From IMG/VR virus record IMGVR_UViG_3300020465_000870, positions 1 to 39,151 of that record: a stretch of 39,151 nt of DNA. One strand, given 5' to 3'. The DNA is from a virus. This document shows, one piece after another, positions 1 through 31,946 of this stretch. A model generated the notes under the pieces. It ran no database searches and was not told the DNA's origin. It was given only the letters and a program-made list of their open reading frames with translations. How positions within the stretch are numbered: position 1 is the first letter of the stretch; each line of letters begins with the position of its first letter. The position numbers and the translations under genes are program-made.

Positions 1-396
1 CCTGAAGAAAAATATGATGTCATCGAGAGCATGGTAGATAAACTTGATGAAATGGAAGGTAAACTCAACGAGCAAATCGAAAAGAATATTGCTCTTAACA
101 GGAGATTAGCCGAGTCCACTTCTGATGTTGTCTTTGGCGAAGTTGCCGAAGGACTTGCATCATCACAAAAGGAGAAACTTGCAACCCTCGTGGAAAATGT
201 TGAGTTTGAAAGTGAGTCAGACTATCGGGAGAAACTAGTAACACTTAAGGAATCTTATTTCCCAAGTAATGCTGGATCTCAAAGAGACAAGTCAGAAAAT
301 TTATCTGAAGGCACAGAAACTCCCGAAAATATAGCGGAAATATCAAACACAATGTCTGCATATCTTCAGACTCTGAATCGTGTCTCTAAAAAGTGA
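1..396 (+). CDS. 22: Prohead core scaffold protein gp22, C-terminal part
   Basis: The reading frame is open from the first base and has no start inside the window, so this is the last 131 residues of a longer protein. It is rich in Glu, Lys and Ser, with a coiled-coil-like helix near the left edge (DKLDEMEGKLNEQIEKN) and a disordered acidic tail. This is the composition of the T4 gp22 scaffold, which forms the prohead core and is degraded by the gp21 protease during maturation. Its position directly before gp23 is the invariant T4-like order. The family call rests on this context and composition, because little of the sequence is conserved. Confidence 0.85.
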   Translation, partial: PEEKYDVIESMVDKLDEMEGKLNEQIEKNIALNRRLAESTSDVVFGEVAEGLASSQKEKLATLVENVEFESESDYREKLVTLKESYFPSNAGSQRDKSENLSEGTETPENIAEISNTMSAYLQTLNRVSKK

Positions 397-436: not shown

Positions 437-1864
437 ATGCAAGCCCCTATTAATCAGGAAGCTCTGCAGGAGAAGTGGGCACCACTACTAGACTACGAAG
501 GTTTAGATCAAATTAAAGATCCTCATCGTAGAATGGTAACCGCCGTTCTCTTGGAGAACCAAGAACAAACAATGCGCGAAGAGCGCGAATTCTTAACTGA
601 GCAACCAACAAACGCAACTGGATCTTCAGGTGCTACTGCTGGTTTCTCTGCTGGCGCAACTGCAGCAGGCCCTGTTGCTGGTTTCGACCCAGTACTTATA
701 AGTCTTATCCGTCGTTCAATGCCTAACTTGGTCGCTTATGACCTAGCAGGTGTTCAACCAATGAACGGCCCAACAGGACTTATCTTCGCAATGAGAAGTC
801 GCTTCACTTCACAGAGTGGAACAGAAGCACTATTCGATGAAGCAGATACAGCATTCTCTGCACAGCATCCAGACGGAGGAAACGACGTTTCTGCTGGATA
901 CACTCAGAATGAGGGTGCAAATACAGGTGGAGCAGTTGGTTTCGGTACTACAGGTGGTACTCAGCAAACTAACCCTGCTGCACTTAACCCAGAAAGTGGT
1001 CAGCAACACAATACCTACGTTACTGGACGTGGTATGGATACTGAGGACTCTGAAGCACTCGGTACAACTGGAAATGCTTTCAACGAGATGGCATTCTCAA
1101 TCGAGAAAGTCACCGTTACAGCGAAGACCAGAGCACTCAAAGCTGAGTACAGTCTAGAACTTGCTCAAGACTTGAAAGCAATTCATGGTCTTAATGCTGA
1201 AGCAGAACTTGCCAACATTCTTTCTACTGAGATCCTTGCTGAGATCAATAGAGAAGTTATCAGAACAATCTATAAGGTTGCTGAATCTGGTGCACAAACA
1301 AACACAGCAACTGCTGGTGCGTTTGACCTAGACACAGACAGTAACGGTAGGTGGTCTGTTGAGAAGTTCAAAGGACTTATCTTCCAAATCGAGCGCGACG
1401 CTAACGCTATCGCACAAAGAACTCGTCGCGGAAAGGGTAACATGATCCTCTGCTCTGCTGACGTTGCTTCTGCACTCACAATGGCAGGTGTTCTAGATTA
1501 CACCCCTGCACTTAATGCAAACCTTAACGTAGATGACACAGGCAACACATTTGCTGGTGTTCTTCAAGGTAAGTACAGAGTTTACATCGACCCATTCGCT
1601 GCAAACTTAGCTGCTGATCAGTACTACGTTGTTGGATACAAAGGTACATCACCTTACGACGCTGGATTATTCTACTGCCCATACGTTCCTCTACAGATGG
1701 TTCGTGCGGTTGGTCAGGACACCTTCCAACCAAAAATTGGATTTAAGACTCGCTACGGCATGGTCGCAAACCCATTCGCAGAAGGTACAACTCAGGGTCT
1801 TGGTCGTCTTGCAGTTAACGCTAACCGTTACTACAGACGTGTTAAGGTTCAGAACCTCATGTAA
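437..1864 (+). CDS. 23: Major capsid protein gp23
   Basis: This 475-residue protein is the T4-type major head subunit, which forms the hexamers of the prohead and mature capsid. The N-terminal delta region (about residues 1-55) ends in Leu-Thr-Glu at 53-55. That fits the L/I-x-E cleavage rule of the gp21 protease, so maturation probably cuts after Glu55. A Gly/Ala/Thr-rich stretch follows, then the conserved segment with FDPVLISLIRRSMPNLVAYD (residues 83-102), which is diagnostic of cyanophage gp23. The C-terminal HK97-like core ends near the stop with RYYRRVKVQNLM. Codon use is richer in C-ending codons than in neighbouring genes, as expected for the most highly expressed phage gene. A strong terminator follows. 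Confidence 0.98.
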   Translation: MQAPINQEALQEKWAPLLDYEGLDQIKDPHRRMVTAVLLENQEQTMREEREFLTEQPTNATGSSGATAGFSAGATAAGPVAGFDPVLISLIRRSMPNLVAYDLAGVQPMNGPTGLIFAMRSRFTSQSGTEALFDEADTAFSAQHPDGGNDVSAGYTQNEGANTGGAVGFGTTGGTQQTNPAALNPESGQQHNTYVTGRGMDTEDSEALGTTGNAFNEMAFSIEKVTVTAKTRALKAEYSLELAQDLKAIHGLNAEAELANILSTEILAEINREVIRTIYKVAESGAQTNTATAGAFDLDTDSNGRWSVEKFKGLIFQIERDANAIAQRTRRGKGNMILCSADVASALTMAGVLDYTPALNANLNVDDTGNTFAGVLQGKYRVYIDPFAANLAADQYYVVGYKGTSPYDAGLFYCPYVPLQMVRAVGQDTFQPKIGFKTRYGMVANPFAEGTTQGLGRLAVNANRYYRRVKVQNLM

Positions 1865-2622: not shown

Positions 2623-2781
2623 ATGAAACCATCACCACGCCAATTAAAAGAGGCTACAAAGGCATACGAAAAGATAATAAACCATTTAGTTAGTGAGGGA
2701 TATGCATCAAATAAAGGAGATGCAGATTCTATTATCGGTGGAATGAGTGAAGAATGGTATCACATGATCGTTAACGAATGA
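2623..2781 (+). CDS. Small hypothetical protein
   Basis: This 52-residue helical protein (starting MKPSPRQLKEATKAYEKII) ends in EEWYHMIVNE. Its stop codon overlaps the start of the next gene as ATGA, so the two are probably translationally coupled. The N-terminus resembles other small cyanophage proteins with a helical KEATKAYEKIINHLVSEGYA segment. No function can be assigned. Confidence 0.65.
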   Translation: MKPSPRQLKEATKAYEKIINHLVSEGYASNKGDADSIIGGMSEEWYHMIVNE

Positions 2782-3065
2782 AAAATTTTCAAGAGTTTCT
2801 TGAATCGACAAAGTGCCCAAAAGGATATAGATTCGATACAAAACTTAAGAGTTGCGTCCCAACTAAAAGATATCCATACTATCCTTATGGGATGTTAGGT
2901 AGAAGTAGGGAGGAAACGAAAAATGGTAACGGATCTAATGGATCTAACGGGAATGGAACTAATGGTTCTCATTCTGGCAACGGTAATGGTTCTAACGGGC
3001 ATTCTGGTGGGAATGGTGGTGGAGCTTCGGGCAATGGCGGCAACGGTGGGGGAAACGGAGGTTAG
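2778..3065 (+). CDS. Gly/Asn/Ser-repeat protein with capsid-targeting-like N-terminus
   Basis: This 95-residue protein starts MKNFQEFLES. That resembles the T4 capsid targeting sequence MKTYQEFIAE, found on internal head proteins and removed by the gp21 protease. A short Cys-containing module follows (residues 13-27, CPKGYRFDTKLKSC). After about residue 49 the protein is almost purely Gly, Asn and Ser with a few His and Thr (GNGSNGS repeats), so the tail must be flexible or aggregation-prone. It overlaps the gene before by ATGA and is followed after 2 bases by another gene with a similar N-terminus. It may be packaged in the head, but the last-residue cleavage match (F-L-E) is imperfect. Confidence 0.7.
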   Translation: MKNFQEFLESTKCPKGYRFDTKLKSCVPTKRYPYYPYGMLGRSREETKNGNGSNGSNGNGTNGSHSGNGNGSNGHSGGNGGGASGNGGNGGGNGG

Positions 3066-3067
3066 TC

Positions 3068-3385
3068 ATGAAAAATTTACGCCAATTTCTAGAAGAATCA
3101 AATCCACGCATTCCTAGAAAGAAAGGTCAACCAGCAAAATCAAAAAAACATTCGGACTTGTATACAGACGAAGATCCGAAGGGAACTATTCATGGTCTTG
3201 GATTTAAAGATGAATCCACAGCTAGATCGAGTGTAACAAAAATAAGAAAATCAAGCCGTTCACACGCACATAAAATACAGGCAGCGATTGCGATGGAGCA
3301 ACGTGCTAGAGTAATGGGTAAGACATCAGAAGCAGCGATCTATCGTAAGTTTATAAATTCTATGAAGAAGAAAACTAAAAAATGA
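3068..3385 (+). CDS. Basic protein with capsid-targeting-like N-terminus, candidate internal head protein
   Basis: This 105-residue basic protein starts MKNLRQFLEES. The segment L-E-E fits the L/I-x-E rule of the T4 prohead protease, so cleavage after residue 10 is plausible. The rest is Lys/Arg-rich. It contains a conserved cyanophage module (HGLGFKDESTARSSVTKIRK and SHAHKIQAAIAMEQRAR, about residues 43-82) and ends KKKTKK. T4 internal proteins IPI-IPIII share this layout: a targeting peptide followed by a small basic domain carried with the DNA. Its location between gp23 and gp3 in the late operon supports this. The enzymatic role, if any, is unknown. Confidence 0.75.
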   Translation: MKNLRQFLEESNPRIPRKKGQPAKSKKHSDLYTDEDPKGTIHGLGFKDESTARSSVTKIRKSSRSHAHKIQAAIAMEQRARVMGKTSEAAIYRKFINSMKKKTKK

Positions 3386-7406: not shown

Positions 7407-7883
7407 ATGCCAAGAAAGAAGTCTGAACATTATGTAAATAACAAAGAACTACTTGAGGCATTGATAGTATATCGATCAAAAGTCGCTGTTGCTAAAGAAA
7501 AAGGATTGCCAAAGCCAAGAATTACAAACTATCTTGGAGAATGCTTTCTTAAGATAGCAACTCATCTATCATATAAACCAAACTTTGTGAATTATATGTT
7601 CCGTGATGATATGATATCTGACGGAATTGAAAACTGTGTTCAATACATTCATAATTTTGATCCAGAGAAATCTCGCAATCCTTTTGCATATTTTACTCAG
7701 ATCATACACTATGCATTTTTAAGACGTATTCAAAAAGAGAAAAAGCAGTTAGATATTAAGAATAAAATTATTGAGAAGACAGGTTATGATGAAGTAATGC
7801 ACGTTGAGCCTGGTGCATTGACGGGAGCAATGTCCGAGTATAATACGATTAAAGATAACATTGCACAAAAGAAAAACAGATAA
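7407..7883 (+). CDS. 55: Late transcription sigma factor gp55
   Basis: This 158-residue sigma-like factor directs host RNA polymerase to NATAAATA late promoters. In T4 it works together with the sliding clamp gp45. The sigma region 2 core is visible in MFRDDMISDGIENCVQYIHN and FDPEKSRNPFAYFTQIIHYA (about residues 67-104), followed by the FLRRIQKEKKQ helix. As in T4 gp55 (185 residues) there is no region 4. It has its own sigma-70-type promoter, so it should be made by the unmodified host polymerase before late genes. The next gene starts one base after its stop. Confidence 0.95.
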   Translation: MPRKKSEHYVNNKELLEALIVYRSKVAVAKEKGLPKPRITNYLGECFLKIATHLSYKPNFVNYMFRDDMISDGIENCVQYIHNFDPEKSRNPFAYFTQIIHYAFLRRIQKEKKQLDIKNKIIEKTGYDEVMHVEPGALTGAMSEYNTIKDNIAQKKNR

Positions 7884-25829: not shown

Positions 25830-25954
25830 AAAGGAAAAGGAAAACGAAACCTTTTCAACTTAACTGTTTCGGTTTTTTCGGAATTGTGCTATTATTAAGT
25901 GGTACTGGTTCCGTTATTTTTGTTTATTATGCTATTATGGAGATGATTAAATGA
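25826..25954 (+). CDS. Single-span membrane microprotein
   Basis: This 42-residue protein has a basic N-terminus (MKRKRKTKPF) followed by a membrane helix (CFGFFGIVLLLSGTGSVIFV). This orientation would place the C-terminus across the membrane. It overlaps both the gene before and pyrE by 4 bases. Function unknown. Confidence 0.55.
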   Translation: MKRKRKTKPFQLNCFGFFGIVLLLSGTGSVIFVYYAIMEMIK

Positions 25955-26508
25955 AAGACGAGTTACTCACAATGTTGAAAGATAGTGCCTATAAAAAAGG
26001 TGATTTCACATTATCTTCTGGAAAACAGAGTGAGCATTATATAAATTGCAAACCTGTCACATTATCAGGTAGAGGTTTAGCAATTACTAGTGCCATGCTT
26101 GTTGAGTGTGTAGAGGATGATTCTGTCGCAGTTGCTGGATTAACTCTTGGTGCTGATCCATTAGTATCGGGTGTTGCACTTGTATCTGCTTTAAACAAGG
26201 GATCACTTTCTGGGTTGATAGTTCGTAAAGAACCAAAAGGCCATGGAACTCAAGCATGGATAGAAGGCCCATTACCTGAAAAGGGATCTAAAATTACAGT
26301 CTTAGAAGATGTAGTTACCACAGGTTCATCTGCAATAAAAGCAGTAGAAAAACTTAGAGATGCTGGTTATGTTGTGAATCGTATTGTCAGTATCATTGAT
26401 AGGCAAGAAGATTGTGATTCCTGTGGAATGGGTGAAGCTGATACTGCTTTTAAGGAGGCAGGTCTTGAATTTTATAGTCTCTTTAATTTGGAGGAAATTA
26501 CTAAATGA
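25951..26508 (+). CDS. pyrE: Orotate phosphoribosyltransferase PyrE
   Basis: This 185-residue type I phosphoribosyltransferase makes OMP from orotate and PRPP in pyrimidine synthesis. Visible signatures are FTLSSGKQSEHYINCK (substrate region), GLTLGADPLVSG, RKEPKGHG (flexible loop) and the PRPP motif ITVLEDVVTTGSSA. A GGAG site precedes the start. The length is close to host PyrE. Together with the purine genes and apt it broadens nucleotide supply during infection. Confidence 0.95.
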   Translation: MKDELLTMLKDSAYKKGDFTLSSGKQSEHYINCKPVTLSGRGLAITSAMLVECVEDDSVAVAGLTLGADPLVSGVALVSALNKGSLSGLIVRKEPKGHGTQAWIEGPLPEKGSKITVLEDVVTTGSSAIKAVEKLRDAGYVVNRIVSIIDRQEDCDSCGMGEADTAFKEAGLEFYSLFNLEEITK

Positions 26509-26853: not shown

Positions 26854-27161
26854 TGATTTTTTTATCAAAACCATCGGTATATACATTACCGGGAACATGG
26901 GAAAAACAAGATGATGTTCTTATCCCACATTTACATTTAACACCTGATCAGGGATTCATCCTTTTCATAGTGTTGTTTTTATTTACTTTAGTTGGAATTG
27001 CTCTTTACAATGCTTTTGGGCCCGGAAGTAAAAATCTTAAAGATCAGATTGACGAGCATGCTAAGCTGCATGAGTTGGGTATTGCTCATGGGCATGAAGG
27101 TAGAAGAGCAGTTATGAAATCTGTAAACAAAGATTATCCGAAGCATTCACATGACGATTAA
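26853..27161 (+). CDS. PsbN-like membrane protein with extra C-terminal tail
   Basis: This 102-residue protein has a membrane helix (about 36-53, FILFIVLFLFTLVGIALY) followed by NAFGPGSKNLKDQIDEHAKL. That resembles the end of host PsbN, where the helix is followed by TSFGPPSKELSDPFEEHED. PsbN is needed for photosystem II assembly and repair and is not part of the mature complex. The phage protein differs by about 30 extra N-terminal residues and a His/Lys-rich tail of about 30 residues. The relationship is visible in the motif but needs profile support. Confidence 0.65.
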   Translation: MIFLSKPSVYTLPGTWEKQDDVLIPHLHLTPDQGFILFIVLFLFTLVGIALYNAFGPGSKNLKDQIDEHAKLHELGIAHGHEGRRAVMKSVNKDYPKHSHDD

Positions 27162-28284
27162 TATCATTTCTAAAAATGATACTCTTTGGGCAGCAGATAA
27201 ATTTATTCAATATTTCTCTCACATGGGGAATATTGAAGATTATTTGCGTTTCGTAAAGAAAGAAACAATTAAAAGTTTTAGTTCTCTTACACCATTAGAG
27301 GATGAGTTTCTTAATGAAGATATTCATCCAAATGATATGGAGTTTGATATTCGTTTTGTAGGTGATAGATTTCAAAATGGTCTACCACAAGATCATTATA
27401 AAACTATGTTAGGTGTTGTATCATCTCATAATAATGAATCAAATATTCCGGGTAGAGAATTACGTTGGATGGTATATGAAAAGAATACACAAAAGTTAAT
27501 TGGTTTTATACGTTTTGGTTCACCCACTATCAACTCAAAACCAAGAAATGTATGGTTAGGTAAACCAGCCAATTTATCCATATTAAATCGTCATACTTGT
27601 ATGGGATTTGTTATTGTTCCATCTCAACCATTTGGATACAATTATCTTGGTGGTAAATTATTGGCATTACTTTGTTGTTCACATTTTGCAAGGGAAACTA
27701 TATCTAAAGTATTTGATAAAGAGATTGCATTATTTGAAACAACTTCTTTATATGGATCTACTACAGCAGCATCACAATATGATGGTCTTAAACCTTTTAT
27801 GAGATACAAAGGTTTAACTGAAAGTAAGTTCACACCATTGTTACATGACAATGCATTTCATAAACTTCATAACAAGTTTAAAGAATTAAATAATAATACA
27901 CCTCTTACTGATAATAAAGCATCTTCAAAGAAGTTGAAGAGACAAACTAAGATGATATCTATAATTAAAAATTCAATGAAAGAATATGGAATGCAAACTG
28001 AATTGGAACAGTTTACTGATGCGATTAACATGGCATTGAATCTTACACAGAAGAAAAGATTTTATATTTCTGATTATGGATATGGTAATGTTCGTGAAGT
28101 TATAGCTGGTGAGCAAGATAAACTAGTTCGTGGTCAGAACTGGGATAAATTTTATCTTGAAAATATCATCTCATGGTGGAAGAAGAAAGCAAGTAAGAGA
28201 TATGAAAAGTTAAAGAAGGAGGAACGCTTTAGAGATAAAGTTGAACTATGGACACAGGAGGATGATATACAAATCATTAGATAA
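27151..28284 (+). CDS. DUF4338 (DruA-like) family protein
   Basis: This 377-residue protein has the layout of DUF4338. GRELRWMVYEKNTQKLIGFI is followed by FGSP, then NRHTCMGFVIVP (compare nnsRFLilP), YNYLGGKLLALLCCSHFARE, IALFETTSLYGSTTAASQYD, and a Lys-rich C-terminal third with helices. DUF4338 includes DruA of the Druantia anti-phage system, but its biochemical role is not firmly known. Here it lies in a phage core region without the other Druantia genes. A counter-defence, regulatory or nucleic-acid role is therefore more likely than defence. It overlaps the psbN-like gene by 11 bases. Confidence 0.7.
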   Translation: MTINIISKNDTLWAADKFIQYFSHMGNIEDYLRFVKKETIKSFSSLTPLEDEFLNEDIHPNDMEFDIRFVGDRFQNGLPQDHYKTMLGVVSSHNNESNIPGRELRWMVYEKNTQKLIGFIRFGSPTINSKPRNVWLGKPANLSILNRHTCMGFVIVPSQPFGYNYLGGKLLALLCCSHFARETISKVFDKEIALFETTSLYGSTTAASQYDGLKPFMRYKGLTESKFTPLLHDNAFHKLHNKFKELNNNTPLTDNKASSKKLKRQTKMISIIKNSMKEYGMQTELEQFTDAINMALNLTQKKRFYISDYGYGNVREVIAGEQDKLVRGQNWDKFYLENIISWWKKKASKRYEKLKKEERFRDKVELWTQEDDIQIIR

Positions 28285-28290
28285 TAAATA
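28283..28290 (+). promoter_or_regulatory. Late promoter box AATAAATA
   Basis: AATAAATA fits NATAAATA and overlaps the stop of the DUF4338 gene. It lies 16 bases before the ATG at 28307. Together with a second copy at 28568 it marks 28307-29085 as a small late unit inside an otherwise early/middle region. Confidence 0.55.
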
Positions 28291-28306: not shown

Positions 28307-28576
28307 ATGGATAAGATAGATACTCAAGGAATGAGTGGGCCTGCGGATCCTAACTTCAAAGGAGAACTAAAAGCACAACCACATAAACCTATGATGATAT
28401 ATCCTCGTAGGTTACATACACCTGAAATGGTTAAGGAACTAAAAATTTTATTTAATGAAGTTTTGGATGAGAGAGAAGGTAAAATGAACTATACTTCTTA
28501 CTTTGATGAATCTAAATTTGCACATCGTATTAATGAACCAGAACCAAAATATGAGAACAAATTAAATAATAAATAA
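28307..28576 (+). CDS. Hypothetical protein in a late unit
   Basis: This 89-residue protein has a Pro/Lys-rich N-terminal half (MSGPADPNFKGELKAQPHKP) and a helical centre (PEMVKELKILFNEVLDEREG). The tail is charged. Function unknown. It stands between two late promoter boxes and may be a virion or assembly protein. Confidence 0.6.
   Translation: MDKIDTQGMSGPADPNFKGELKAQPHKPMMIYPRRLHTPEMVKELKILFNEVLDEREGKMNYTSYFDESKFAHRINEPEPKYENKLNNK
28568..28575 (+). promoter_or_regulatory. Late promoter box AATAAATA before the candidate internal protein
   Basis: AATAAATA lies 18 bases before the start at 28594 and overlaps the stop of the gene before. Placement matches a T4-type late promoter driving the lysine-rich capsid-targeting-like protein. 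Confidence 0.6.
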
Positions 28577-28593: not shown

Positions 28594-29085
28594 ATGAAGA
28601 CATTTAAAGAATTTATACAAGAGAGTAGTCTTTCTAGAATTAAAAGCAAGTCCGATAAAAAGGGTATTGCTGTAATGTCTGCGTCTAGAGGAAATCTATC
28701 TAAGAAAGAAAATACCGCGAGAGCAAAGAAATTAGATAAAGATATTCGTGGTAGATTTGGTAAAGGTGCTACGAAAGTAACTGGATCATATTCAGAGAAA
28801 GATGAAAAGACTGGTAAAGAAACAAAGGTAAAAGAGAGAAGTCATGTCATAGCTCGTGGTAAGATGGGTAAGAAAAAGTTTAAAAAAGAAGTTAAGAAAC
28901 TGGGTAAGAAGTATGGGCAGGATTCTGTATTGACACAAACTAAAAAAACTGGTACACTATCAGCCACTCGCAAAGGTGGTCTTGGCAAGAAAAAAGGTAT
29001 AAATGTGGGTAGATTTAAACCACAGGGTAAAAACCCAGAAGGTCAATCTCAAATCAAAGGAAAAACTTTTACTTACGGAGATTAA
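28594..29085 (+). CDS. Lysine-rich candidate internal head protein with capsid-targeting-like N-terminus
   Basis: This 163-residue protein starts MKTFKEFIQESS. This is very close to the T4 capsid targeting sequence MKTYQEFIAEA, and I-Q-E obeys the L/I-x-E protease rule for a cut after residue 10. The remainder is extremely basic, with Lys/Gly/Thr repeats (KGATKVTGSY, GKMGKKKFKKEVKK, RKGGLGKKKG), and could coat or condense DNA like T4 internal proteins. A late promoter box sits just upstream. The region KDIRGRFGKGATKVTGSYSE resembles a module seen in other cyanophage proteins. Whether it is injected with the DNA is inference. Confidence 0.75.
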   Translation: MKTFKEFIQESSLSRIKSKSDKKGIAVMSASRGNLSKKENTARAKKLDKDIRGRFGKGATKVTGSYSEKDEKTGKETKVKERSHVIARGKMGKKKFKKEVKKLGKKYGQDSVLTQTKKTGTLSATRKGGLGKKKGINVGRFKPQGKNPEGQSQIKGKTFTYGD

Positions 29086-29333
29086 TGACAACAAAACTTT
29101 ATGATGACTCTAATTGGAGAGAAGAATACAAAAGTTACACTAGCGATAAAAGGGAACTTGAATTGCTAGAAAATGGGCCACATAGTCTTGCTCAATCTTG
29201 GCATCTTGGTGCATTATATAATAATTGGAAAAAGATAAAAGGTTATAACAAATTAGACCCCAAAGAAAATAAGGGTCAACTACAATCCTCTATGAAAGAT
29301 TTCTTTGCTAAAAATAAAGATCAAGGAATCTAA
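29085..29333 (+). CDS. Conserved cyanophage hypothetical protein
   Basis: This 82-residue protein has the cyanophage pattern LYDDSNWREEYKSYTSDKRE, followed by LLENGPHSLAQSWHLGALYN. It is mainly helical with a basic tail. Function unknown. Its start overlaps the stop of the lysine-rich gene (TAATG). Confidence 0.7.
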   Translation: MTTKLYDDSNWREEYKSYTSDKRELELLENGPHSLAQSWHLGALYNNWKKIKGYNKLDPKENKGQLQSSMKDFFAKNKDQGI

Positions 29334-29347
29334 ATTTATTTTTTATT

Positions 29348-29869
29348 ATGGCTGCTTTAATTATTGCTCTTCCTGAAGAGGCAGAAGGAATTCAGGGATA
29401 CCCAATTTATTTAAGTGGGTGTGGAAAAGTGAACGCTACTATTGCTACAATGAGAGCAATTAGGGATGGACACAAATTCATTATTAATTATGGATCTGCT
29501 GGAACAGTAAGTAATATTACTGGACTTGTAGAGGTTACTGGATATGTTGATAGAGATATGGATGCAAGAGCATTGAAATGTGAGCTTGGACAAACACCCT
29601 TTGAAGATGGTATAATAATTGGGAACAAAGGAATAGTTTGTGGAAGTGGAGACAAGTTTGCAACATCCAAACCTGAGATTGTTTGTGACATTGTGGACAT
29701 GGAAGCATATGCTATTGCTAAAACTTGTCTCAAAGAGGAAGTGGATTTTAGAAGTTTTAAATACATTTCCGATTCTGCTGATGAAAATTCAGCAAATGAT
29801 TGGGAGGAGAATGTTCATAAAGGTAATTCGTTATTCAAAGCAATGCTGTATCGTGGAGGATTAAATTAA
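29348..29869 (+). CDS. Nucleosidase/phosphorylase of the MTAN/PNP family
   Basis: This 173-residue protein belongs to the PNP/UDP superfamily. Signatures are MAALIIALPEEAEG at the start, IINYGSAGTVSN (compare GTAG), and DIVDMEAYAIAKTC with the substrate-binding M-E, followed by FKYISDSADE carrying the catalytic Asp. Typical MTA/SAH nucleosidases have about 230 residues, so this one is compact. It could free adenine from methylthioadenosine, S-adenosylhomocysteine or nucleosides. The next gene, apt, would turn adenine into AMP, so the two look like a two-step salvage unit. Confidence 0.88.
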   Translation: MAALIIALPEEAEGIQGYPIYLSGCGKVNATIATMRAIRDGHKFIINYGSAGTVSNITGLVEVTGYVDRDMDARALKCELGQTPFEDGIIIGNKGIVCGSGDKFATSKPEIVCDIVDMEAYAIAKTCLKEEVDFRSFKYISDSADENSANDWEENVHKGNSLFKAMLYRGGLN

Positions 29870-30381
29870 TGGATCTTAAAAAATTAATTTCTGATCATCC
29901 TGATTTTCCTAAGAAAGGTATCTTGTTTAGAGATATGTTTCCGATATTAAGGAGTCCTACAGCAACAACTTTTATGTTAGATAGATTAGGAGAATTCTCT
30001 GAGAGATTAACTCCTGATTATATTGTTGGAATTGAATCTAGGGGATTTATTATTGGAACTGCTTTAGCGACTAGACAGAGGATGGGATTTGTTCCAATAA
30101 GAAAAAAAGGTAAGTTACCTAGTAAAATTGTTGGTGTTAATTATAGTTTGGAATATGGTCAAGATAGATTGGAAATACAATCTAACATCTTAAAAGACCA
30201 CAAGGTGTTATTAGTTGATGACCTACTAGCAACTGGTGGTACAGTAAAAGCAGCATCTAAATTAATTAGTAAGGTAGGTGGAAGACTTGTGGGTTGTGCA
30301 TTTGTGGTAGAATTGTTAGGATTGAATGGTAGAGATAATATTCCTAATGTTCCAATTAAATCATTAGTTAGTTATGACTGA
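29869..30381 (+). CDS. apt: Adenine phosphoribosyltransferase-like protein
   Basis: This 170-residue type I phosphoribosyltransferase matches Apt. LISDHPDFPKKGILFRDMFP is the classic Apt N-terminus (I-x-D-F-P-K-P/K-G-I-x-F-x-D). IVGIESRGFIIGTALA is the next landmark, followed by FVPIRKKGKLP. VLLVDDLLATGGTVKAA is the PRPP loop. It joins adenine and PRPP to AMP. It overlaps the nucleosidase gene at TAATGG, so they are coupled. It sits before gp62 in a replication operon. Confidence 0.93.
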   Translation: MDLKKLISDHPDFPKKGILFRDMFPILRSPTATTFMLDRLGEFSERLTPDYIVGIESRGFIIGTALATRQRMGFVPIRKKGKLPSKIVGVNYSLEYGQDRLEIQSNILKDHKVLLVDDLLATGGTVKAASKLISKVGGRLVGCAFVVELLGLNGRDNIPNVPIKSLVSYD

Positions 30382-31241: not shown

Positions 31242-31946
31242 ATGAAGAAATTTATTTTTGATGTTGATGGTACTCTGACTCCTAGTCGGAGGCAAATAGA
31301 ACATTCTTTTTGGGCTCCCTTTCTGATATTTTGTCGTCATCATGATGTTTACATCGTTACTGGTAGTGACAGACAGAAGACATTGGAGCAGTTAGGATTG
31401 GACATATGTTATACAGCTAAGAGAGTATATAATTGTTCTGGTTGTGATGCGTATGAAAAAAATGTGAATGTATATCAAAGTGAATGGAAGTTACCAAAGA
31501 AAGTAGAAAATTTTTTATTAGATGAATTGGCATATAGTTGTTTTCCTATTCGTAATGGAGTTCATATTGAGTCTAGGCCGGGATCTGTTAATTTTAGTAT
31601 TCTAGGTAGAGGTAAAGATCCTTTTGTGGGAAGAGATGAATATATTAAATGGGATAAGGAAAGATTAGAAAGAGAGGATATTGCAGATAGAATTAGAAAT
31701 CAATTTCCTGAATTGACAGTTGTAATTGGAGGACAGACTGGTATTGATATTGGGCCACTAGGAACTGATAAGAGTCAAATATTACGGGATTTTTCTGAGG
31801 ATGATGAATTATATTTTTTTGGTGATAGAATGGAGGTAACTGGTAATGATTACTCATTAGCAGAAGCCGTAAAGAAAAGACATGGTTGTACATATCATGT
31901 TAAAGACTGGCATGAAACTAAACAAATACTCAAGGAGACTTCATAG
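31242..31946 (+). CDS. Phosphomannomutase-like HAD protein (eukaryotic PMM type)
   Basis: This 234-residue protein has HAD motif I FDVDGTLTPSR (Asp7, Asp9) and VTGSDRQKTLEQLG. The PMM-specific cap segment is HIESRPGSVNFSILGRG (compare E-x-R-x-G-x-x-N-x-S-x-x-GR), and motif IV lies in YFFGDRMEVTGNDYSLAEAV (compare FFGD and GGNDHEI). These are features of the eukaryotic PMM family, which converts mannose-6-P to mannose-1-P; bacterial enzymes are usually of the unrelated alpha-phosphohexomutase type. It could supply GDP-sugars and connect with the epimerase at 11578. Its own promoter follows the regA terminator. Confidence 0.85.
   Translation: MKKFIFDVDGTLTPSRRQIEHSFWAPFLIFCRHHDVYIVTGSDRQKTLEQLGLDICYTAKRVYNCSGCDAYEKNVNVYQSEWKLPKKVENFLLDELAYSCFPIRNGVHIESRPGSVNFSILGRGKDPFVGRDEYIKWDKERLEREDIADRIRNQFPELTVVIGGQTGIDIGPLGTDKSQILRDFSEDDELYFFGDRMEVTGNDYSLAEAVKKRHGCTYHVKDWHETKQILKETS

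Follow-up and report, generated by a model that had tools for sequence, protein, structure and literature searches.

Why a T4-like phage should place what looks like a head-targeting signal on a small, lysine-rich protein is the question raised by the open reading frame at 28594..29085 (+), whose body the initial annotation described as a 'Lys/Gly/Thr polymer-like' sequence that could condense DNA. The window, by which we mean the whole analysed stretch of 39,151 bases, is a fragment of a T4-like marine phage and carries the C-terminal part of the head scaffold gp22 (31..396, +; phrog_237), the major capsid protein gp23 (437..1864, +; phrog_138), the late sigma factor gp55 (7407..7883, +; phrog_234) and a DNA polymerase. 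The reading frame was confirmed: it begins with ATG and encodes 163 amino acids, with 38 Lys and 9 Arg against 6 Asp and 9 Glu, and its closest match in a named isolate is a protein of the Prochlorococcus phage P-TIM68 (78% identical). In this T4-like ocean cyanophage, the apparent product of the gene is a SAM-destroying enzyme that bears a T4-style head address tag.

The body of the protein is a folded enzyme domain, so that the description of it as polymer-like was mistaken. Residues 27-159 (28672..29070, +) match the Pfam family PF23780 (S-AdoMet_lyase) with 72.9 bits, above the curated cut-off of 28 (E=3.2e-20), and the PHROGs match is phrog_2226 (E=1.6e-13), whose label, SAM-dependent methyltransferase, is also the label of T3 SAMase in the T3 record. 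A weak NCBIfam match to valyl-tRNA ligase (E 0.032) was taken as chance. In a Foldseek search with an AlphaFold2 model of moderate quality (mean pLDDT 62.9, with residues 1-15 below 50), the top match was T3 SAM lyase (E 1e-4), followed by Svi3-3; VIA-align scored two T3 SAM lyase entries at Z 13.3 (over 133 residues) and 12.9, Svi3-3 at 7.7 and 7.1, and all remaining rows at 6.1 or below. As the T3 SAM lyase alignment begins at model residue 14, the N-terminal tag lies outside the enzyme fold. When the PDB was searched with a profile of 42 diverse relatives, Svi3-3 was the sole match at E<=10, and this weak match (E=0.72) keeps Gly56-Tyr58, Glu69-Ser71 and Gln104-Glu105 of Svi3-3 in register with Gly64-x-Tyr66 (28783..28791, +), Glu81-x-Ser83 (28834..28842, +) and Gln109-Asp110 (28918..28923, +) of the window protein, which thus has the full active-site set of Gly-x-Tyr, Glu-x-Ser and Gln-Glu/Asp, with Asp in place of Svi3-3 Glu105. 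The SAM-binding residues of Svi3-3 include Ser50, Gly56, Tyr58, Glu69, Ser71, Gln104 and Glu105 (PMC7877911). A profile built from close relatives picked up no SAM lyase among PDB entries, and an initial structure model was of poor quality (pLDDT 48.8); with the 42 diverse rows both became better. In the alignment of these 42 relatives, Gly64, Glu81 and Gln109 are among 15 invariant columns, as is Glu10 of the N-terminal tag, and Phe7, Tyr66 and Ser83 are nearly invariant. The active-site pattern is kept in 39 of 40 dereplicated relatives. The enzyme family is well supported, and on the combined sequence and model evidence the product is almost certainly a SAM lyase.

The strong positive charge invites a different reading, in which the protein would be a polymer-like component of the head interior, its many lysines serving to condense DNA, and would have no enzyme activity. 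Its net charge is +0.196 per residue, compared with a median of +0.153 in the 40 relatives and +0.013 in T3 SAMase, and the internal proteins of T4, described as basic (PMC9026906), offer a precedent; the enzyme family, the fold and the invariant active site nevertheless tell against this reading, which we find very hard to credit, and the DNA condensation first proposed for the Lys-rich body finds no support, since that body is a SAM lyase whose active site is conserved. By analogy with T4's basic internal proteins, the charge may instead help the lyase to sit with packaged DNA.

The first ten residues, MKTFKEFIQE (28594..28623, +), resemble the capsid-targeting sequence (CTS) of T4, and comparison with T4 predicts a prohead-protease site after E10 (I-Q-E/S-S). 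In the T4 record, IPII and IPIII begin with MKTYQEFIAE, which has 7 of 10 residues in common with the window lyase, and the first seven residues of the lyase are those of IPI (MKTFKEF); the likeness to the T4 targeting peptide noted in the initial annotation is real. CTS residues 4 and 7 serve targeting and residues 8 and 10 processing, and the prohead protease gp21 cuts after L/I-x-E (PMC9026906); the window lyase has F4, F7, I8 and E10 at these positions. We wrote a strict pattern, ^M..[FYL]..F[ILMVF].[ED], whose positions follow the published T4 rule. Of the window's 114 ATG open reading frames of at least 50 amino acids, counted over both strands, it matches 2 (those at 28594 and 3068), and it matches none of 868 internal Met residues in the proteins of the cyanophage S-CREM2 (two very long proteins were covered in part). 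The second strict match, MKNLRQFLEES, starts a basic protein (3068..3385, +) with no TAAATA box directly before its gene. Thus, of three capsid-targeting-like proteins originally counted in this DNA, those at 28594 and 3068 fit the strict pattern and the third (2778..3065, +; MKNFQEFLES) falls outside it; this last gene has no box directly before it, a box lying before the overlapping gene at 2623. By eye, its Cys-containing start resembles that of S-CREM2 ORF15, which was detected by mass spectrometry (MS).

Comparison of the N-terminus in related phages, which the initial annotation had recommended, bears out the tag. The IMG/VR scans covered the best 80 of 304, the best 80 of 211 and the best 80 of at least 551 relatives; 155 intact-start proteins from the first two scans plus P-TIM68 were reduced at 90% identity to 40 representatives, one identical to the window protein (L002) and one being P-TIM68 itself (L082). 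The start was set at a CTS-like Met where present and otherwise at the first Met. A strict CTS start was found in 33/40 and a looser form in 39/40, and [ILMV]-x-Glu stands just before an [STA]S[LM]xR linker in 39/40. As the seeds of the first scan included the CTS, the fair count is that of the second scan, seeded on the enzyme domain only, in which the strict CTS is present in 23/28; here 69 of 74 selected starts are the first Met of the open frame, and 6 of the 80 loci were left out because their 5' ends are open. Since the scans share contigs, their loci overlap, and the 228 loci of the neighbour count are not independent. A scan of genome contigs covering 587 stretches gave at least three relatives. 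Two, from bacterial assemblies, look by eye like cyanophage sequence of the P-SSM7 and P-TIM40 types; the third, in a Campylobacterales MAG (L300), keeps ESSLSR and, by eye, the active-site residues.

Among the relatives the linker starts anywhere from 9 to 227 residues into the protein. The tag is usually at the extreme N-terminus, and in several relatives tens of residues, in L093 more than 200, separate it from the enzyme; a tag that stays N-terminal at such variable distance fits a targeting signal and not a part of the enzyme. The CTS-like stretch is internal in L117 and L162. By eye, the products of L093 (2260-3429) and L172 (1-1926) are large and basic, and ahead of their lyase domains stand several I/L-x-E joints as well as stretches that resemble a CTS; they are possibly prohead-protease polyproteins. 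As a control we took the T3-type enzymes, found in 507 phage records: 55 of 60 evenly listed rows align from residue 1 of T3 SAMase, the start of which does not match the CTS pattern. A gp21-type protease is encoded in 10 of 12 lyase-carrying contigs of 39-210 kb (one of the ten has an internal stop) and is annotated in P-TIM68; the window starts inside gp22, which puts the expected place of gp21 off the record.

Virion proteomes of relatives bear on packaging. In S-CREM2, 52 proteins were detected in virions by MS (PMC10665884, Table 3). Five of the 219 S-CREM2 proteins have a strict CTS (ORFs 6, 13, 14, 136 and 154), and all five are among the 52 (P=6e-4, a value that is somewhat optimistic since the pattern was written after the S-CREM2 N-termini had been seen). 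They include an APH-like kinase, a cytidylyltransferase and ORF6, which is a direct relative of the window lyase, 52.5% identical over residues 5-160 with the CTS-like start MKDFDSFLEE, and differs from it in its length of 414 amino acids with an extra C-terminal part. ORF6 was detected with 19 unique peptides (PMC10665884). Two of the five strict-CTS proteins are acidic, so that CTS cargo need not be basic. A CTS-like stretch, RFASFMAEA, lies about 18 residues into S-CREM2 ORF12 (L083 7704-10313), a Cas9-like nuclease detected in virions, and the true start of ORF12 may lie downstream. In S-SCSM1 an NMNAT is reported in the virion proteome (PMC9602691); its start reads MKSFLQFLKE.

These detections could in principle reflect carry-over from the lysate, with the CTS-like start having a different function, for instance binding to the scaffold solely in assembly. 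The S-CREM2 authors themselves caution that highly expressed proteins may not have separated from virions in the CsCl purification (PMC10665884), and the S-SZBM1 virion list of 30 MS proteins (PMC9146016, Table 1) lacks both ORF191, the only strict-CTS protein of that phage, and ORF194, its 707-residue polyprotein with the lyase domain. Of the CTS-like S-SZBM1 proteins 140, 191 and 192, one was detected, the cytidylyltransferase ORF140 (MRFRQFIIEA). The S-SZBM1 proteome is shallower (30 proteins against 52), yet its result stands as a negative for packaging. Against carry-over is the selectivity of the S-CREM2 result, in which all five strict-CTS proteins were detected and 167 of 219 proteins were not, and we judge carry-over to be improbable.

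Late expression is expected of head cargo. The late-promoter-like box AATAAATA that had been noted at 28568 is present at 28568..28575 (+), its first base 26 nt before the ATG, and a second AATAAATA box (28283..28290, +) precedes an 89-amino-acid gene (28307-28576); by eye, a stretch like this second one is the box directly before the lyase in many relatives. Counted across the window as the sole evidence, the box is not above chance, with 93 TATAAATA-like sites (at most one mismatch) observed and 112 expected; it gains weight from its position and its conservation among relatives. TAAATA occurs at -36..-18 in 43 of 50 distinct lyase upstreams (the count excludes L080, L081 and any upstream of less than 45 nt) and is missing from the other seven, against 12 of 523 other open reading frames of the same loci, which were called mechanically and not annotated, so that the 22 of 167 in S-CREM2 may be the fairer background. 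In that phage, the TAAATA core lies at -40..-12 before 29 of 52 virion genes and 22 of 167 others (P=2.5e-9), and before four of the five strict-CTS genes. Clustering of the upstream DNA gave six contexts: the box is in all or all but one of the loci of four of them (30, 29, 6 and 4 loci), and in none and one of the loci of two small ones (3 and 3 loci). In the window, 4 of 51 gene starts examined have a box at -40..-12 (12371, 16750, 28307 and 28594). The TAAATA box is not a complete late signature, being absent before gp23 of the window, the CTS-like open reading frames at 2778 and 3068, and S-CREM2 gp23. That the promoter is 'private' to the lyase is doubtful: an 82-amino-acid gene (29085..29333, +; phrog_16908) starts in the lyase stop codon (TAATG), and the promoter therefore probably serves several genes. 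The proposals of capsid targeting, cleavage after I-Q-E, late control and a putative action in the host after injection draw support from the conservation, the promoter statistics and the virion detection of a relative, and have the S-SZBM1 virion list against them; late-class packaging of the lyase is likely.

The best reading of these results, and a likely one, is that of a SAM lyase that is made late, packaged, trimmed by protease and injected as a counter-defence. A late promoter of the gp55 type would drive its production late in infection; the first ten residues of the enzyme would act as a T4-type CTS and carry it into the prohead core, where gp21 would trim it after Glu10, and the trimmed lyase would stay in the mature head and enter the next cell with the DNA. 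For the window phage we infer both the transcription class and the cutting after Glu10. In the new host the enzyme would convert SAM to methylthioadenosine (MTA) and homoserine lactone, and the depletion of SAM would starve defences that depend on methylation (restriction-modification of types I and III, BREX and possibly SAM-AMP signalling) before phage genes are expressed. The role as an injected counter-defence, for which we infer injection, activity on entry and the target, appears reasonably likely. SAM lyases of this fold function as trimers (PMC7877911), and such a trimer may be too large for the tail tube unless the enzyme is injected unfolded or as monomers. A packaged and injected lyase might also have another target, either the SAM-AMP messengers of type III CRISPR or, as a shut-off, host SAM metabolism in general. 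The CRISPR-associated SAM-AMP lyases 9gab and 9gad and the SAM lyase 9lqd are among the fold matches (Z 5.2-5.4), and a published suggestion holds that SAM depletion might affect the SAM-AMP signal; these entries score no better than other ferredoxin-like rows, and T3 SAM lyase and Svi3-3 score higher; we regard such a target as unlikely.

As an injected counter-defence, the window lyase would combine features of several known systems. With IPI, IPII and IPIII of T4 it has in common the 10-residue N-terminal tag, the gp21-type I/L-x-E site and the basic body. Injected T4 Ip1-3 each block one GmrSD subtype (PMC12373910); the T4 cargo consists of small inhibitors of one restriction enzyme type, whereas the window cargo would be an enzyme that removes a cofactor and so could act on many defences. 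With T3 SAMase (gp0.3) and Svi3-3 it shares the fold and the active-site residues, and PF23780 takes in both the T3 and the window protein. In the T3 record no gene stands between promoters A1-A3 and that of T3 SAMase, an enzyme that has no CTS and is near neutral, unlike the CTS-tagged, late-box-linked and strongly basic window lyase. In 2023 Andriianov reportedly described the T3 SAM lyase as acting against BREX. To our knowledge, DarA and Hdf of phage P1 are not SAM enzymes, and they represent an unrelated system. They resemble the window lyase in being head-associated virion proteins that counter restriction (PMC12810830), as is proposed for the lyase. That a SAM hydrolase is injected was already suggested by the S-CREM2 authors, who named a virion 'SAM hydrolase' whose entry may protect the genome from restriction-modification (PMC10665884). 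The available text of their paper makes no mention of a targeting sequence, of other carriers or of a late box. We found no statement of a CTS on cyanophage SAM lyases in the open-licence PMC library, nor the literal T4 CTS string in the papers searched. New here are the CTS, which is widely conserved, the resemblance of the hypothetical T4-GC 110 to SAM lyases and the neighbouring pair of MTA nucleosidase and adenine phosphoribosyltransferase (Apt).

Known SAM lyases, that of T3 among them, need to be expressed before they can protect an incoming genome, and the packaged proteins of T4 protect at once, each against one enzyme type. If our reading is true, a packaged SAM lyase would give protection that is both immediate and broad, blunting defences that rely on methylation as soon as infection begins. 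It would also provide a function for the long-standing cyanophage 'hypothetical' T4-GC 110 and help to explain the presence of enzymes in cyanophage virion proteomes, and the CTS would become a sequence rule for predicting injected cargo from genomes.

The lyase domain of the window protein is also found in the T4-GC 110 'hypothetical protein' of P-SSM2, P-SSM4, S-SSM5 and P-SSM7 and in similar proteins. At the PF23780 cut-off of 28, P-SSM2_114 (32.6 bits) and S-WAM1 (33.3) pass and P-SSM7 (27.7) falls just below. These proteins differ from the window lyase in being about 35% identical to it, in their mostly extended or polyprotein N-termini (among those read) and in their place in a late structural cluster; the homologs of P-SSM2, P-SSM4, S-SSM5, P-SSM7 and S-TIM4, the five fetched with neighbours, adjoin terminase or structural genes. 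In eight of nine distant homologs (P-SSM4, S-SSM5, P-SSM7, S-TIM4, S-WAM1, S-SZBM1, P-TIM40 and P-RSM6) the CTS-like stretch is internal and the N-terminus is extended, the exception being P-SSM2, where P-SSM2_114 starts with MRTFQEFLQLCE; this count leaves out P-SSM5, P-RSM1, P-RSM3, P-RSM4, metaG-MbCM1 and AG-345-E02. P-SSM3 (L177 1269-2080) has a lyase homolog of the T4-GC 110 type that carries a frameshift and lacks annotation; in P-SSM4 the homolog is intact.

A wider reading, which we put forward tentatively and as somewhat less than probable, is that in T4-like cyanophages the CTS serves as a modular tag of general use, by which a mixture of host-takeover enzymes is injected: the SAM lyase, an NMNAT-like cytidylyltransferase, an APH-like kinase and perhaps a Cas9-like nuclease. 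Some of this cargo would be made as polyproteins, cut by the prohead protease at I/L-x-E joints inside the head. The destruction of SAM would be the widely distributed anti-defence component, which even model phages such as P-SSM2 would have in the form of the unrecognised T4-GC 110, and the window phage would additionally recycle SAM through MTA and adenine to AMP.

This last step is suggested by the genes behind the lyase. All 52 close relatives for which 2.3 kb of downstream sequence is available have the 82-amino-acid gene directly behind the lyase; a weak match of its product to DUF5045 (E 0.044) was not believed. Beyond it, a nucleosidase of the MTA/SAH kind (29348..29869, +) starts 263 nt past the lyase stop and Apt (29869..30381, +; TIGR01090, 194.9 bits against a cut-off of 185.85) starts 784 nt past it, in the nucleosidase stop codon (TAATG). 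The nucleosidase passes at the superfamily level (PF01048, 45.6 against a cut-off of 25.1) and lies below the NCBIfam equivalog cut-offs, with 77.4 against 129 for the best, PRK05634 'nucleosidase', and 34.8 against 73.8 for TIGR01704; its 26 PDB matches at E<=0.01 are all MTA/SAH or aminodeoxyfutalosine nucleosidases. The three enzymes could together take SAM to MTA, adenine and AMP, a link that stays a suggestion since the nucleosidase and Apt are rare beside the lyase. In the 52 relatives, the nucleosidase occurs in four and Apt in three, both counts including L002, which is 100% identical to the window in these two genes. Across the phage collection at E<=1e-5, the nucleosidase matches 5 records and Apt 16, none of them named as a cyanophage, Synechococcus phage or Prochlorococcus phage; among the rows listed, one record, Phage C48C1, has both genes, side by side.

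The same genes could be taken to mean that the lyase is not packaged to any effect and acts late in the producing cell, salvaging SAM to AMP or leaving progeny DNA unmethylated, and that its likeness to a CTS is chance. The nucleosidase and Apt behind the lyase, and the presence of one or the other near it in a few relatives, agree with this explanation, but the counts of four and three in 52 are low, the CTS is conserved far beyond chance and a relative was detected in virions; we regard it as quite unlikely.

Several further genes in the surroundings of the lyase merit description. Upstream, 27151-28284 encodes a 377-amino-acid protein with a match to the DruA (Druantia) domain (PF14236, 38 bits, cut-off 27), and of 66 close relatives of the lyase with 1.5 kb of upstream sequence, 27 have a relative of this protein ending within 250 nt ahead of the lyase. 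A phage-borne orotate phosphoribosyltransferase (pyrE) is encoded at 25951-26508 (TIGR00336, 143.2 bits against a cut-off of 106.8), and a phosphomannomutase-like HAD protein (31242-31946; PF03332, 86.1 bits, cut-off 22.4) lies within the replication gene cluster. In S-CREM2 (L083 5245-6135) and S-H34 (L167 4949-5842) a single small gene separates a DNA adenine methylase gene from the SAM lyase, and one phage thus encodes both a user and a destroyer of SAM.
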